From the NCBI RefSeq assembly GCF_021134715.1, contig NC_060021.1:11068501-11132500 (forward strand): a stretch of DNA of 64,000 nt, read 5' to 3'. The stretch is from Daphnia pulex. Taxonomy: Eukaryota; Arthropoda; Branchiopoda; Diplostraca; Daphniidae. A program made the position numbers and the translations under genes. Of this stretch, positions 42,201 to 51,070 are shown piece by piece; position 1 is the first letter of the stretch, and each line of letters opens with the position of its first letter. The notes under the pieces were generated by a model, which was not told where the DNA came from, searched no databases, and worked only from the letters and a program-made list of their open reading frames with translations.

Positions 42201-45200
42201 GGAGCCACATGCGCCGGCACTGCTCGAGCCAGCTTGATCGTCATCGCCGTGATTGGACGATTCCAAAGACATCGGTTCCGGTGGCCAATTGAGCGTCGGA
42301 ATAGAAATGTTTTCTTCGACTACGGAACTACTACTGGGAACTCCCGAATCGGCTGTGGAACTTTCCGATGGTCGAGCAACAGCAGCACGCCTCATCATCT
42401 CTCTGAGACTTACAGCCCGGGAGGAAGTGCTCAAACCCACCGGAAGGGGATCTAGAGGATCAGCGATGGAGTTGGCGACGGGTGCTACATTTCGCTCGTC
42501 TTGAACGTCCGCATCTTTGTTTGAAGTTGGTGAGCACATGGATACGCAGGCGTGGATTACGTTTCGACCACCATCACAGCGTTCGTTGACGATACTCTGG
42601 ACGCCGGAAAGGCGATAGGCTTCTGAAGACGTTTCTAAGCAGTTCATGACGTGGCGAACGCCATCGATATCGCAGGCCAGCAACTTGGGCATTAATAATT
42701 GATTTTCGGTGACGAGTACGAGTAATATGGCTTGAGTCTTCTGTCCAGGACCAACCCCTTGCAGAGAATGGGAACCGAAACCCAGGCAGCGCATTGGTGG
42801 CAAATCCAGCAAATGCGGATCACGAATAGAATCGAGACAGTCACGTGACAAAGGGTAGATTGTGCCATTTCCATCACGGAGCAGAGTCAAGGCGTCACCA
42901 TCTCCTGTATTGAAGAGTCCAATGTTTCGTCCGACGTTGAGGCCCATGAACGAGGTATAGTCCGTTGGTATATTCGATTCATACTCGGCTTTTCCCGTGC
43001 TCAGATTGTAGATTGTGTACTTGAGCTGAGAGCCAACTTTGTTGACCGTGTGAATACCTTGTCCGTCTACTGAGAAGGCTAAAATCTGTCCGGGATCGGC
43101 CAACGTCACTCGTCGCGGGAGTCTTTGGAAACAATCAGGGATCCGGATGGATGAGCCCGATTTTACCACCTAAATAGAGAAAGAGTAACATTAGATTAGG
43201 GAAATTTCGTGGATTCAAATATTCACAATCGTCACTCACCTGCAATTCGTCTTTACGCAATAAACGGCAATCTTGTAGAAGCGAAGCAGGATCTTCGCTG
43301 CCGCTATTTGCCGGCACAACTAAATCTTTAGCTTCCTTGCCGCTGTAATCCTTGTTAGACGGAAAACGAACAGCAGCGTAGGCGCCGTCCACCTTGAGGA
43401 CGCGGCCAATGGGCACATTCTTAACATCTTCGATGAAAATGACATCTTTTAACACCCATTCCTCTTCGTCGCCACGTTTGTCTTCGCTATCGCCGCGCGG
43501 AGCTGGTCTCTTGTGTTTCTTTTGTGAGCCTCCTGCTACGCTCCCCGTTTCGCTGCAAGTGCTGCTGGCTGGCGATGGAGGAGGAGGCATGTCAGGTTTT
43601 TCGACAACCGCCTCACGAGTGCTCGATGTTTTAGAGGTTTCGGCGTTGCTACTGCTGCTACTTCCACTTGCAGCATTGCCACGTTTGCTGTCACTACTAC
43701 CTCCGGGTGGAAGAGGTGGAGCTAGGCGGACCAAGGGAGGGGGTCCTGGGACGATACGGAATCGACAAGTATCAGTCCAGCTCCATGCTGAACCTTGCAG
43801 CTGACCGACTTTCGGCACACCATCGATGATTGAGAATCCAATGGCTCCAGCTTGATACATGGGACTACTTCTCATACACACCTGAAGAATAAAATCAACC
43901 ATAAGCTTTAAAAAATGATAACAAAGAAATAGCTATTTCGTTATTTACCTGTGCGCCAGTAACGATATCGGAACCGGAAGCTGAGCTGCTGTGGCTCTTC
44001 TTAGCTTTGGTTCGGTATTTGTCCCAAAGTTTACGGCGTTGGCCTGGTGGCAATACGCCCCACCAATAAATGGCTCCATTTTCTAGTCGAACAGCCGAGT
44101 AGAGTGAACAGGTGTCGAGTGAAACGATTTTTTCGCCGTGAAATTCAGAGGGGTGCTGGGCAGCATGTTCAAGTCTTGTGATACCGGGAACGTGAGCTAC
44201 AGTTTCATCTAACCAGCTGGCTACTTTTCCCGATTCCGTTACCACAGTGCACCGTATGACGGATGCCGACAGCAGTACAATTTTTTCAGCATAGAGCCCC
44301 AGTGTAAGAGCTCGTGGGTGATGAGCGTGAGGGAAATCCAGGTGACGATAAGGCTCCGCGTCAGTCCATTTCCATGAGAGGATTTGACCAGATGTACTAA
44401 GTGCGATCAACTCAGAATACATTGCAGCAATGCTGGTGAAACGGGGAGACGGACCACTAGAGCCTCGTTCAGGCCAAAATTCAAGCTCGTCTGACAGACC
44501 TAGAGGGCTCTGTGTTTGATGTGGAGTGTCTTTCTTTTTGCTGCCATCCAGGTCACGTTCGTACCAAGTGTCTCGAAGCGCTGTTTCCAGCCAACGACGT
44601 GGTCCAAGATAATGTCGATCTCGCCAACGAAACATCCCAGATTCACGATCTGCTCCTCCTGTCCCTGCTCCACTACCACCACCTCCACCTCCTGTGAGAC
44701 AGTTAATCAATTTTGCTACAATTATATTTCATAAGTTGTACCCGATTAAATAAAAAAAAAAAATGAAAAGCAGGATTGTTAATAAAAAGACAACTACCTC
44801 GATCACTGCTGCGTTCTCGTTCGCCTTCCACGCTTCTTCCACGATTATTTCCGGATGGGCGGCTGCGAATGGTTGAATAACCAAACATGTCTTCTGAGAA
44901 CATGGCGTCAGCGTCAATAATGACGGAAGGCCCTGCATGGTCAGAGTGTAGCCCTGCACCAGGATCGAGCAGAGAAATCAAGTCTTCGGGAACGTATGAA
45001 TCCTGAGAATCGTCAACGTCTTCACTCTCATCATCGTCACGTGAAAGCAAATTGTTGACAGCTTGATTGACATCCAAGTTGGTTCTCTGCAACTCGCGAA
45101 TAATAACGCTTCTGCTTTTTCCTTGCAGGACAACTTGGGCTTGTGAAACTAGTTCTTCAGGGACAAAGACAGGTCTAGAGCTAGCCATGATGACACCATG

Positions 45201-45754
45201 TCCCACTGCCCCGGAAGCCAAAAGTCCTGTTCCCCTAGATCCACTGTTGCTTGCACCCCTGAGACTGGAAGCTCTGAGCAACCTGCCTCTTTTGCAAGTC
45301 TGGCGACTAGGACCTGGGCCAGATCCCTTGCCATCTTTCCCCCGGTTTGCTTCATTTTTGCTCAGATCTAAGCGATCCGGTAAAACATTGAAGGCAAGTC
45401 TGCACACCCTTCCATCCTCCAGCAGAAACACAATATGGGAAGGTCCCACTACACACTGCTGGACAGGGGAACGTAATGCACTGGTAAAACCAGAGTTGAT
45501 GTGCCCAAAACGGTTGGTTTTATCAGCAAGTTCTTTAAGCCTGCAAAATCATAAGAAAATTTGCATTCAATATACTACATTCGTTAGAAATACGTTTTTC
45601 ATTATCCCTGTACAAAAATGGGAATCGAAAAATGGTAGGTATTGGGAAATACGAAGGTGATGTGTTGGCAACAAACTTACCGATCCAATATCACTTCTTC
45701 TGTGGTGGGTAATGATTGCACGAGAAAATGAATATTTGATGATCCCGACATCAT
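36211..45754 (-). CDS. UBR5: HECT E3 ubiquitin ligase UBR5 (hyperplastic discs)
   Basis: Large nuclear/cytosolic E3 of the N-degron and chromatin/RNA pathways (Drosophila hyd). Coding exons in transcript order are 45681-45754, 44798-45540, 43949-44691, 43240-43881, 41657-43169, 40396-41591, 39527-40320, 39065-39452, 37753-38985, 37323-37665 and 36211-37253, giving 2903 aa (human 2799). Seen in order: N terminus [19 protein letters not shown] at ~146-190 ([14 protein letters not shown]); RCC1-like propeller blades on both sides of residue 300-1100; UBR-type zinc box at ~1165-1235 ([39 protein letters not shown]); acidic Ser-rich tracts at ~1550-1640; MLLE/PABC at ~2505-2560 ([29 protein letters not shown]); HECT C-lobe with catalytic C2872 in [11 protein letters not shown], 31 residues from the end exactly as in human. 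Start taken at the first of two adjacent ATGs. Confidence 0.96.
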
Positions 45755-46534
45755 GAAGACAAAACTGATATGTAATTAAGAAACTCTCGAACAATTTTTC
45801 CTTTTTCTCATGGGTCTCTGTCTAGACCATCATGAGCAGGCTTAATAACGTCCAGCATGGAGTCTTCTCAATTCTCTCAATTTTTCTCTCTTGGAAACAG
45901 CGTTGCCACTTTGAATCCTTTGCTCGCGATTCGCTCGTGTTTTGTTCGAAATTTTCATTGTTCACAAAAATGCTCGAATTTCGAAATAATGTTAACAAAA
46001 CGTTTTGTGTTCGATTATGTAACGTTTTAATTTCGTAAATTGCAAAATCTTTTGACTAGTGAAACCATGAAACCTTTAATTCTTCAAATAAGAACAAAAT
46101 GCTATGTTATCAATTCGACTTTTAAGTTTTCTATTCCTTTTTTCTAACTCATACTTCAAGGTAGTGCACTACAAGAACCCATATAATATTGCTAAGGTTT
46201 TGGCAATCGCAATTTAAAATTACGTCATAATGCAATAAATAAATTGCAACATAATCATATTATTACACCACCTACGTCTAGTTTTCCTACTGATGGGTTG
46301 GTATGGTAACGCCACATAGTGGCAATTTTTGAATAACGAATTCAAAATTTGGTAGCTCCAGTTGGATAAATGTAAAAAACAACAAAATATAACTTGGAAT
46401 ATATGTATTAGAATAGATGTTAAATGATTTAGCAAACGAACTTGATTTTTAATATGGGAACGTGTAAGAAGAAATAAATTGGGGATTCAATCGATATGGT
46501 GATATTCCATGGATATGGGCTATTAGGCATTTTT
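45755..46534. other. UBR5 promoter and 3' flank of the RING-W2 gene
   Basis: No coding sequence. Both neighbouring genes run leftward, so this holds the UBR5 5' UTR/promoter and the 3' end of the RING gene. The middle is AT-rich without visible motifs. Confidence 0.5.
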
Positions 46535-48448
46535 TTATAATATACTTATACATTCAATATCAATAGATTCATTTAGTTTGTCTTCATGCAATGATTTTTC
46601 TGCCATGTACGACGAAATCAAATCAGAAATCAAATATGCGACAAGTTTGCTTCCCCCTTGAAAACCTGATTCGCCGGAGGATGGAGCAACGATCGATGGA
46701 TCGATAACCCATGACAAGAGGCCCTCTTCACACAGCACCTCAAAGATTTCTTGCATCAAACCTAGAGAAATCGTTCAAAATTAAATTAATATTGAATTCC
46801 GTTATCCATCGCTAGTGACCACCTTTGGGATGTTGTAGCTTAGCGACCAAAGTTTGTACAACAAATATCAGTTGCATTCCGCTGCTATCACTCTCGTCAA
46901 TGTACCGTTTTAATATTGAAGATGTCCAACGTTTCAAAATTGCATGGTTCAGTTTGCAATCTCCACTTTTATCTAGTTTAAAAAATATATAGATATTTAG
47001 ACACATTACGTAAACTATTAACATAAAATTGGGAAATTTACCTTCAATCGAATTATTTATAGCAGCAGTGGCCAATGCAAAAATCAAAGCAGAATAAAGC
47101 TCGTGTAAATCTCTATAAGGAGTTTTGCTCAAATCAACTTGTACTTCTATCCCTGCACATCAAATTTAAAAAGTGGTCCGTGAATTGTAATGTTCCGCAA
47201 CAGCAAAAGCTTACCTTCTTTACTTTCATGCAGGGCTGCAGTGAAAAGATCCCGATTTGATAACAATTCGAGAGAAACCTTGTAGACATATTGTTGCTAA
47301 TGAATAGGGAAAAAACGAAATAGGTTTAACTTGATAACTCAAGGTAGCGCAAAAGAAAAACAAAATACTTCTATCCAAATGAAGACAATTTCGTCCGATA
47401 ATAAATGTCGATTAACAAACGCCAAATACTCCTGCATTTTGTACTGAAAATCTTGAGGTTCGCCACGGATGGGCAATCGTTTCTCCCATAAACCTTCCAA
47501 TTTAAACACAGTTTGGAAGTGAATATCGCACTCGGATTTTCGGACGTTAGCCATGGCCAGTGTTTCGTTGTTTTCGAGTTGCTTCATAATGTCATCCTCG
47601 GCTCTGTGGATTGATTTCGTCAATTTCGCCAGGGAAGACTTGATATCCCTTTTGAGATGACGAGAAATCCACTCTTTTTCTCGATTCTCCATTTCAATCA
47701 TTCTAGATTCAAGCTCGATCAACAAATTGGCATAGTCTTTCTTGTCCATTTGATGTTTCTAAATCAACAATAAAAAAATAAATAAATTATTTCAAACTCA
47801 AATGAGTCTCATCTGTATAGCGCGATCTACCTGAAACCAACTGCAAACTGTTTCTGTGGCCGCTGTCAATTGATTTCTGGCGGGGGCTGGGCTATTCAAA
47901 AGCATTCTCAATTCCGAAAGAAAAGTGTCGATTTTGGAACCAAAAGGTGACTGTCCAATTTGAGTTGAGGTGGAAAATTCCTTCCTAAGATGTCCCATCA
48001 TCTCCGTTTCCACATCCTGCGCACATTCCGCCAACACAACTAAGGAAGCTTGAATATCGTTTTTGAGTTCGACAGACTGAACCACGCTGTCCTTCTCGCG
48101 AGCCTCGATATCAGCAAGTTTCATGTCTAATTCGATCAAGGATTCGACGTAATTATTGTTTGGCAAATCTTCAGAAAAGGAATGAATCTTCCTGCAGATT
48201 GGACACTTGATTTCGGTATTTTGTTTAATTTCCTGTATGTTACGCAATATACAATAAACGTTAATTTTAGAAAATTACCAAATTATTGCTATGTTTATAC
48301 TAACCGTGAGACATGATCGGCAGAACGTGTGGGCGCAAGGTAGAAACTTGGGTTCTCGATTTTCGCCATATTCCTTCAAACACATGCCGCACGTAATCAA
48401 AAAATTCGATTCAAACGATTCGCTGATGGACGACGAGTGTGACGACAT
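46535..48448 (-). CDS. RING-finger protein with coiled coil and C-terminal W2-like (eIF4G-type) domain
   Basis: Candidate E3 ubiquitin ligase not matching any family I know. Coding exons in transcript order are 48305-48448, 47831-48232, 47369-47758, 47215-47296, 47042-47152, 46823-46972 and 46535-46761; phases agree throughout and the product is 501 aa. A C3HC4 RING uses C20, C23, C38, H40, C43, C46, C58 and C61 (CGMCLKEYGEN, PCAHTFCRSC, CPIC). No B-box is seen. Residues ~75-260 contain two related helical blocks (VESLIELDMKLADIEAREKD and LLIELESRMIEMENREKEWI), suggesting an internal duplication. Residues ~353-480 resemble the W2 HEAT domain of eIF4G: ELYSALIFALATAAI, ILKRYIDESDSSGMQLIFVV, QTLVAKLQHPKGLMQEIFEV, then W and a GGSKLVAYL helix. 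The role of the fusion is unknown. The W2 assignment comes from pattern, not a search. Confidence 0.75.
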
Positions 48449-49281: not shown

Positions 49282-51070
49282 ATGTCTACTGCAAATACCT
49301 CGTCGCCTGTGATAGCATGGGGAGGAAAAGCTGTTGAAGACGTTGCTGGAAATGTTAGTTTCACCGACGTCATGTCGGAAGATCTAGCAAAAACTTTGCA
49401 AACAAAGTAAGTATATTTTTGATTTATAAGATGAAACAGATCTCACTTAATATCTGTGATTCTGTTGTCAACAAAGGGAAGATTTGTCTCAATGGCCCGA
49501 GTTAACGGCAGCAGGCATGGTGGACGAAGCCTCTGGTGGAACAGCAGTTCAGGAAACAGTGAGTGATGAAATGTTGGCCCAGTTGCTCCAACTTCAATTT
49601 GATCAAGAGTATGACAGAGCCTTGGGTAAAGAAGAAGCCAAATACAATGGCACCTCTAAAGGTAAAGTTTTCTGTTGTCAATTTTATTTTACTATTTTTA
49701 AAATTTCTTGAAATTCGTTTAGTGGGTGTGTCATATTCTAATTATCGCAAGATTCCCAAGGGGAGTTTTCTGGATGAAGATTCAGATTCATTTGACGATG
49801 AGGAATGGGACAAAACCCACAAAAGTTGGGACAGTTTTGAGGTAATTTGAATTTCTTCATTTGGTCTGTTGTGTGATGCTAAATTTCTGTAATTTTTCAG
49901 TCAGCTGAGAAAGAGTCTCCAACCATTCCCAAGTCGGGTTACGCTAAAATGGGAGGAGAGATCATCACGAAACACGACACTGTAATTACTGGTCGCAAGA
50001 ATGCCTGCAAAGCCATGCAACTTGAACAGCTGGAGATAGGAGACGGTGGCGGTTTCGACATGAAATTGAGCAACAAGGTGTACAACAAGCTTAAAACCTT
50101 TTCGCACCAAGAACAAAAAAGAGCTGCTCGATTGAATGACAAGCACGAGAAAGCTACGGCCACCATGGCCATCGACCCTCGCAGTCGGCTGATTCTCTTT
50201 CGCTTCGTCGACAACAATATTTTGGAACGCATCAATGGTGTCATCAGTACCGGAAAGGAGGCCGTGATTCTTCACGCCGAAGGTGGCAACAGCGAGGAGG
50301 TAATTGTTCCCCGCGAATGCGCCATCAAAGTTTTCAAGACAACTCTCAACGAGTTCAAAACACGGGACAAGTACATCGCCGAAGATTACCGTTTCAAGAA
50401 TCGATTTTCCAAGCAGAACCCTCGAAAAATCATCCACATGTGGGCGGAGAAAGAGTACCACAACCTGACGAGGATGCGTGAAGCCGGTCTGCCTTGTCCC
50501 GAGGTCGTTTTGCTGAAGAAACACATTTTGGTCATGTCTTTTATCGGCCAAGAGGGCCGACCTGCTCCCAAGCTTCGCGAAGCGATCCTGTCAACTGCAG
50601 AAGTGGATTTGGCATACACCCAGACGGTTTCGATGCTCCATAAAATGTTTAACGAATGTCACCTGGTTCACGCCGATTTGTCAGAGTACAACATCCTTTG
50701 GCACGAACAGCAGTGTTGGCTCATCGATGTGAGTCAAGCAGTGGAGCCTTCACACCCTCACGGCTTAGAGTTTCTCTACCGCGACTGCACCAATGTTTCA
50801 AATTTCTTCCAGCGATTGGGCGCCAAAGACGCAGTCTCTCCGGCCGAGCTTTTCTCATCCGTCAGCGGTTTCAGCGTCGATGGATTGGAAGCAGACGTTC
50901 TTAGTCAAATTCGCGACTACGAGCGGAACGAAGAGCATTTAACTGTCAGCCATCCCAACCAGAAGGTTTACCCGTTTGATTATTGCTGGCAAAAATCCCA
51001 AGAGGCTCGTGTCCAACAACAAAAGCTGGATTCCCAGAAAGAGGAAGACTTGTCTGAACAAGAACAGTGA
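49282..51070 (+). CDS. RIOK3: RIO-family atypical serine/threonine kinase 3
   Basis: Atypical kinase/ATPase associated with 40S ribosome maturation and innate signalling in animals. Coding exons are 49282-49406, 49477-49661, 49723-49841 and 49901-51070, giving 532 aa (human 519). The N-terminal quarter is acidic and carries the RIOK3-specific block MLAQLLQLQFDQEYDRAL. The whole kinase domain sits in one exon: P-loop STGKEAVILHA at ~259-269, ATP-contact K286 in CAIKVFK, catalytic D402 in VHADLSEYNILW, metal-binding D419 in LIDVSQAVE. The RIO loop TTLNEFKTRDKYIAEDYRF follows the lysine. The ATG is the first in the mRNA-like frame and gives MSTANTSSPVIAWGG, close to other RIOK3 N termini. The C-terminal tail is Gln/Glu-rich. 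Confidence 0.96.

Follow-up and report, generated by a model that had tools for sequence, protein, structure and literature searches.

How did a RING finger protein come to end in a piece of a translation initiation factor? The question is raised by a minus-strand gene in a 64,000-nt stretch of the Daphnia pulex genome (C5:11068501-11132500, here called the window, whose numbering is used for this gene), for which a first-pass annotation had proposed seven exons with agreeing phases that join a C3HC4 RING, two related helical blocks and a C-terminal segment resembling the W2 domain of eIF4G, eIF5 and BZW. Spliced from the DNA (48448-46535), the seven exons yielded a single open frame of 501 amino acids, with phases of 0,0,0,1,1,1 as proposed and GT-AG borders at all six introns. 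When the coding sequence was base-shuffled 500 times, the frame never stayed open. Comparison with protein families, solved structures and the rest of the genome (133.2 Mb assembly, 13 contigs) lends good support, at the level of sequence, to a RING/coiled-coil/W2 fusion assembled by exon shuffling.

The W2-type segment and the position of the joint

The C-terminal part of the predicted protein aligned with the genome's own eIF4G at 57 identities in 167 columns (BLASTP), and none of 1000 shuffles of the W2 part aligned as well. For the W2 part and the same eIF4G, hhalign returned a probability of 99.2, with a 39-residue insertion in the window protein. The likeness spans from about residue 285, inside exon 3, to about residue 445 (SWV). 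Thus, the eIF4G-like core that had been annotated was recovered by alignment, shuffles and intron positions, but the segment begins earlier than claimed and stops at about residue 445. Core sequence and order of parts are shared with the W2/HEAT-3 domain of the eIF4G copies on contigs C4 and C10 and with that of human eIF4G1 (PDB: 1ug3). Exon 6, which encodes the core, scored 101 against the C10 copy, 64 against a copy on C11 and 48 against the human protein; the C11 eIF4G-like copy was on this score rejected as a closer source.

The introns point the same way. In the C4 and C10 copies, the only ones used for this comparison, the W2 region is interrupted after CSWIQ (phase 0), in the Gly after SIE/AIE (phase 1) and in the Gly after HPK (phase 1). 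All three positions, with their phases, recur in the window gene, which has one extra intron between exons 4 and 5. The shared introns argue for copying at the DNA level and not via mRNA. We regard the homology of the C-terminal part to the eIF4G HEAT-3 core as real, as judged from sequence, and as eIF4G-like rather than eIF5- or BZW-like. The remainder of eIF4G was not recovered: in place of the MIF4G and MA3 domains, neither of which was matched in the window protein at E up to 10 (Pfam), the RING and the helical blocks are found.

All features of the gene lie on the minus strand. Exon 1 (48305..48448) carries the start codon and the beginning of the C3HC4 RING (residues 1-48). Exon 2 (47831..48232; residues 49-182) completes the RING to C61 and continues through helical block 1 (47987..48166; residues 71-130) into the first of two W2-start copies (47831..47878), which ends in CSWFQ flush with the phase-0 intron, as CSWIQ does in eIF4G. 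Exon 3 (47369..47758; residues 183-312) also contains a fusion joint, with helical block 2 (47576..47749; residues 186-243) followed by a second W2-start copy (47369..47452; DFQYKMQEYL to FIWIE, residues 285-312). Exon 4 (47215..47296; residues 313-339) begins QQYV, represents a first copy of W2 part B and runs from phase 0 to phase 1 as in eIF4G. Exon 5 (47042..47152), which ends YSALIFALATAAINNSIE, is a second copy of part B or an insertion and, with phase 1 at both ends, forms an in-frame cassette. The W2 core occupies exon 6 (46823..46972; KLNHAILKRW to QTLVAKLQHPK, residues 377-426), both introns of which are placed as in eIF4G. Exon 7 (46535..46761) comprises GLMQEIFEVLCEEGLLSWV, which extends the W2 to AA-box 1 with six residues missing, a 56-residue tail without W2 similarity, and the stop codon. 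About 80 bases 3' of the stop lies an ATTAAA (46448..46453), a possible poly(A) signal by motif match only.

Since a helical block and a W2 start occur together in exon 2 and again in exon 3, the joint falls inside an exon. This bears directly on whether two adjacent genes, a RING gene and a W2 gene, have been wrongly joined in the model. Both joint-bearing exons are in one open frame and the phases agree throughout; we rule such a misjoining out for practical purposes, giving it hardly any credence, and the in-exon joint likewise makes two separate transcripts very unlikely. We infer a single transcript for exons 1-7. The annotated union of a RING with an eIF4G-type W2 in one protein is therefore upheld by the in-exon joint, the W2 homology and the shared introns.

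Seven exon skips were tried on this model. The frame was kept in four (exon 3; exon 5; exons 3 and 5; exon 2) and broken in three (exon 4; exons 4 and 5; exons 3, 4 and 5), and with exons 3 and 5 left out, the exon order equals that of eIF4G. Since a frame of 501 codons has stayed open at such divergence, which we consider a better argument than codon counts, the gene is probably in use.

The RING, the helical blocks and the apparently duplicated exons

All eight zinc ligands of the RING are present with C3HC4 spacing (C20, C23, C38, H40, C43, C46, C58 and C61), and five Pfam RING models scored above their cut-offs (PF13639: E 1.2e-9, 38.7 bits against a cut-off of 27.3), confirming this part of the annotation. 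The Arg following the last Cys (CPICR) fits the linchpin position. When the whole protein was used as a phmmer query, the best 60 of 184 matched PDB chains were RING proteins, and among these 60 the nearest solved RINGs were those of TRIM56 and TRIM2/3; the W2 signal became visible only with the C-terminal part as query. The complete ligand set and the TRIM-like character of the RING suggest, from sequence, that it is in use. As in TRIM/RBCC ligases, the RING is followed by a long helix. In contrast to them, the whole protein has no B-box match in Pfam at E up to 10, and the W2-derived part replaces the usual TRIM C-terminus.

Searched against its own genome, the front part of the protein (residues 1-312) matched 78 places at E <=0.1. 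Three of these were the RING-W2 gene itself, and many of the others were clustered on contigs C7 and C8. Related RING genes form clusters at C7:283-327 kb, C7:577-610 kb and C8:6321-6343 kb. The one relative checked closely, at C7:603114, matched residues 6-47 and 50-130 in two pieces (E 5e-16). Its first intron lies at the same codon and in the same phase as the intron between exons 1 and 2, it shares the motif LPNNNY, and its RING is followed by a stretch similar to helical block 1. From these matches and the shared first intron, the front half appears to come from a multiplied RING family that, in the C7:603114 member, has the block after the RING. In six fetched regions holding some of the RING relatives, the W2 part of the window gene found no match.

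The two helical blocks were annotated as related, and their local alignment score of 82, against a maximum of 49 in 1000 shuffles, bears this out. Over their full lengths, exons 2 and 3 gave a global score of 57 (maximum of 16 in 2000 shuffles). The tail of exon 2 (VCSWFQ) scored 41 and that of exon 3 scored 40 against the C4 eIF4G exon ending CSWIQ, and in neither case did any of 2000 shuffles reach the score. Among 3400 open 16-codon tails preceding a GT across the window, the exon 2 tail was the best in-register match (score 41, with 23 for the runner-up) and that of exon 3 ranked third (13). Compared with the next eIF4G exon, the score of exon 5 was reached by 0 of 2000 shuffles and that of exon 4, a weaker match, by 7 of 2000. 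On these comparisons exons 2 and 3 look duplicated, and exons 4 and 5 less surely so. AlphaFold (AF2), run on exon 3 aligned with exon 2 (two rows), predicted a single helix over exon residues 6-74, with mean pLDDT values of 82-97 for the ten-residue blocks of exon residues 1-70.

A proposed mechanism and its rivals

We hypothesize that one gene of the multiplied RING/helical-block family contributed its 5' part, which was fused as DNA, introns included, to the four final exons of a copy of eIF4G. Duplication of the exon bearing the joint (exons 2 and 3) would have followed, and possibly that of the next W2 exon (exons 4 and 5). In the resulting protein the RING would recruit an E2, the long helices would form a dimer, like the coiled coils found in RING proteins, and the C-terminal W2-derived part would dock a target, so that a W2 module would direct the RING ligase; as a first guess, what it docks would be something that binds the eIF4G W2 core or translation complexes. 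One exon-shuffled gene encoding such a ligase is the reading that we consider probable, and within it we infer the ligase activity, the dimer and the docking role. A fuller version is tentative and, in our view, less likely than not: the eIF4G HEAT-3 domain may have been borrowed to bring the RING protein to complexes of translation initiation or of kinases, and isoforms that differ in their W2 starts may arise where exons 2/3 and 4/5 are used alternatively. An engineered CBL-eIF4E linking peptide is reported to lower eIF4E, eIF4A and eIF4G in cells (PMC12774438), which implies that a ligase brought to the eIF4 complex can act on translation.

Several results weigh against the proposal. The Pfam W2 model PF02020 matched neither the whole protein nor either of two C-terminal fragments at E up to 10, while a control eIF4G matched it at E 5.4e-18. 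The PDB search with the W2 part found eIF4G chains only, at E 0.019 to 0.1, and over the C-terminal queries the values ranged from 0.019 to 0.14, all weak when taken alone. For residues 350-480, where the first-pass annotation required a W2/HEAT match, the evidence is divided between these results and the strong BLASTP and hhalign matches to the genome's own eIF4G with its three shared introns. AA-box 1 is shortened: EEGLLSW (vs EEGFESW) is kept, and the six residues before it are missing. The last 56 residues, which follow SWV or its Val, have no likeness to AA-box 2, as 1766 of 2000 shuffles scored as well against C10, 1348 of 2000 against C4 and 1841 of 2000 against human eIF4G; they were rejected as a W2 tail, and with them goes the final helix that had been assigned to the domain. 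The direct likeness of the exon 2 and exon 3 tails is not significant (608 of 2000 shuffles as good), and neither is that of exons 4 and 5 (158 of 2000), which leaves exons 4 and 5 unsupported as direct copies of each other; the case for duplication of the W2 pieces consequently rests on the likeness they share with eIF4G. Confidence in the AF2 model of exon 3 is low overall (mean pLDDT 72.2, pTM 0.38), including its W2-start part. Finally, the branch of the window gene is long (1.5), and the differences from eIF4G by codon position, given below, fit constraint on the window gene but may stem largely from eIF4G and do not separate the two.

Long branch and lost tail are what would be expected of a lineage-specific chimera whose W2 is drifting, that is, of a RING/coiled-coil protein whose C-terminal extension has lost a role of its own. 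The W2 part's lack of a match in the six fetched regions with RING relatives and the shortened W2 of the C11 eIF4G-like gene also suit this account. It is less easily reconciled with an open frame and splice sites that are intact over all exons, or with the pattern of substitution. Relative to the C10 copy, 44, 33 and 69 of 119 aligned codons differ at positions 1, 2 and 3, and the residue is kept at 57 of the 119 while 10 of 17 shared fourfold sites differ; relative to the C4 copy, the counts are 39, 33 and 62 of 119, with 12 of 21 shared fourfold sites differing. We therefore judge drift improbable. BZW is a mimic of eIF5, and 5MP/BZW supplies the model for a second alternative, in which several W2 modules, brought together by the coiled coil, compete for the partners of eIF4G and the RING has little or no catalytic role. 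The kept W2 core, the W2-start parts present twice and the two long helical blocks would all serve such a decoy. However, a RING that keeps eight of eight ligands and its TRIM-like character suggests use, and there is no recognisable AA-box 2, a motif with a reported part in how eIF4G and DAP5 bind partners; this decoy seems to us unlikely.

The first-pass annotation had suggested a ligase directed at translation or at kinase complexes; in this vein, the target would be the MNK kinase (Lk6-type) or eIF4G complexes. Such a target would suit the eIF4G origin of the W2 part. eIF4G and DAP5 are reported to bind MNK via the AA-boxes of W2 (PMC4402527, PMC9977666), in Aplysia eIF4G the matching C-terminal stretch was deleted to stop MNK binding (PMC3760813), and the engineered CBL-eIF4E peptide provides a precedent (PMC12774438). 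In the window protein, however, AA-box 1 lacks the six preceding residues and AA-box 2 is unrecognisable. As these are the motifs reported to bind MNK, the step to this kinase is weakened, and we now regard a MNK-directed ligase as quite unlikely, ranking it between the decoy and the drifting chimera.

If the proposed W2-directed RING ligase is correct, the transfer of a W2 copy to a RING protein, intron positions included, illustrates a way in which ligases may acquire new targeting modules. The gene is a candidate, open to experiment, for the control of translation initiation by ubiquitin in a model crustacean, and specific isoforms are predicted from its duplicated exons, which are in frame. 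We know of no RING-W2 protein, and of no W2 in RNF219. Among the matches listed, the titles and abstract starts of open-licence papers named no RING-W2 protein, which is no proof of absence, and public annotation may well contain the architecture already, as a gene model without a name. Few proteins are known to carry W2: eIF4G, eIF5, eIF2B epsilon and 5MP/BZW, all of one domain family, while CBP80 has a related series of domains (PMC9467303), and also DAP5 (PMC4402527). RNF219, a RING ligase and CCR4-NOT cofactor, is likewise a RING protein tied to the mRNA machinery and differs in belonging to another complex (PMC8660800).

Other eIF4G copies and neighbouring genes

The gene for eIF4G is present in multiple copies in this genome. 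The copy on C4 has MIF4G pieces at 482996-483977 and no MA3 match there; a second 3' copy, 5.4 kb further on, has no detected MIF4G, and the two differ at 86 of 1100 ungapped bases. These copies are located at L037 6309-6990 and L038 about 1686-2365 (C4), and the third at L039 7465-8229 (C10). Read by eye, the C11 eIF4G-like gene (L052 9005-8400, minus strand) has a diverged W2 that ends soon after AA-box 1; its AA-box 2 seems to be missing, and MIF4G pieces lie within 6 kb on the same contig. A scan of viral contigs gave 87 stretches that matched a pattern, none of them confirmed.

Downstream of the RING-W2 gene and on the same strand, a UBR5/EDD-type ligase occupies positions 43895-45548 of the window (PF11547, E 3e-26). 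Upstream, a RIO kinase gene runs head-to-head on the opposite strand from 49282 onwards (PF01163, E 1.4e-65). Its likely start at 49282, as read by eye, is about 0.83 kb from the start codon of the RING-W2 gene, and the two genes possibly share a promoter.
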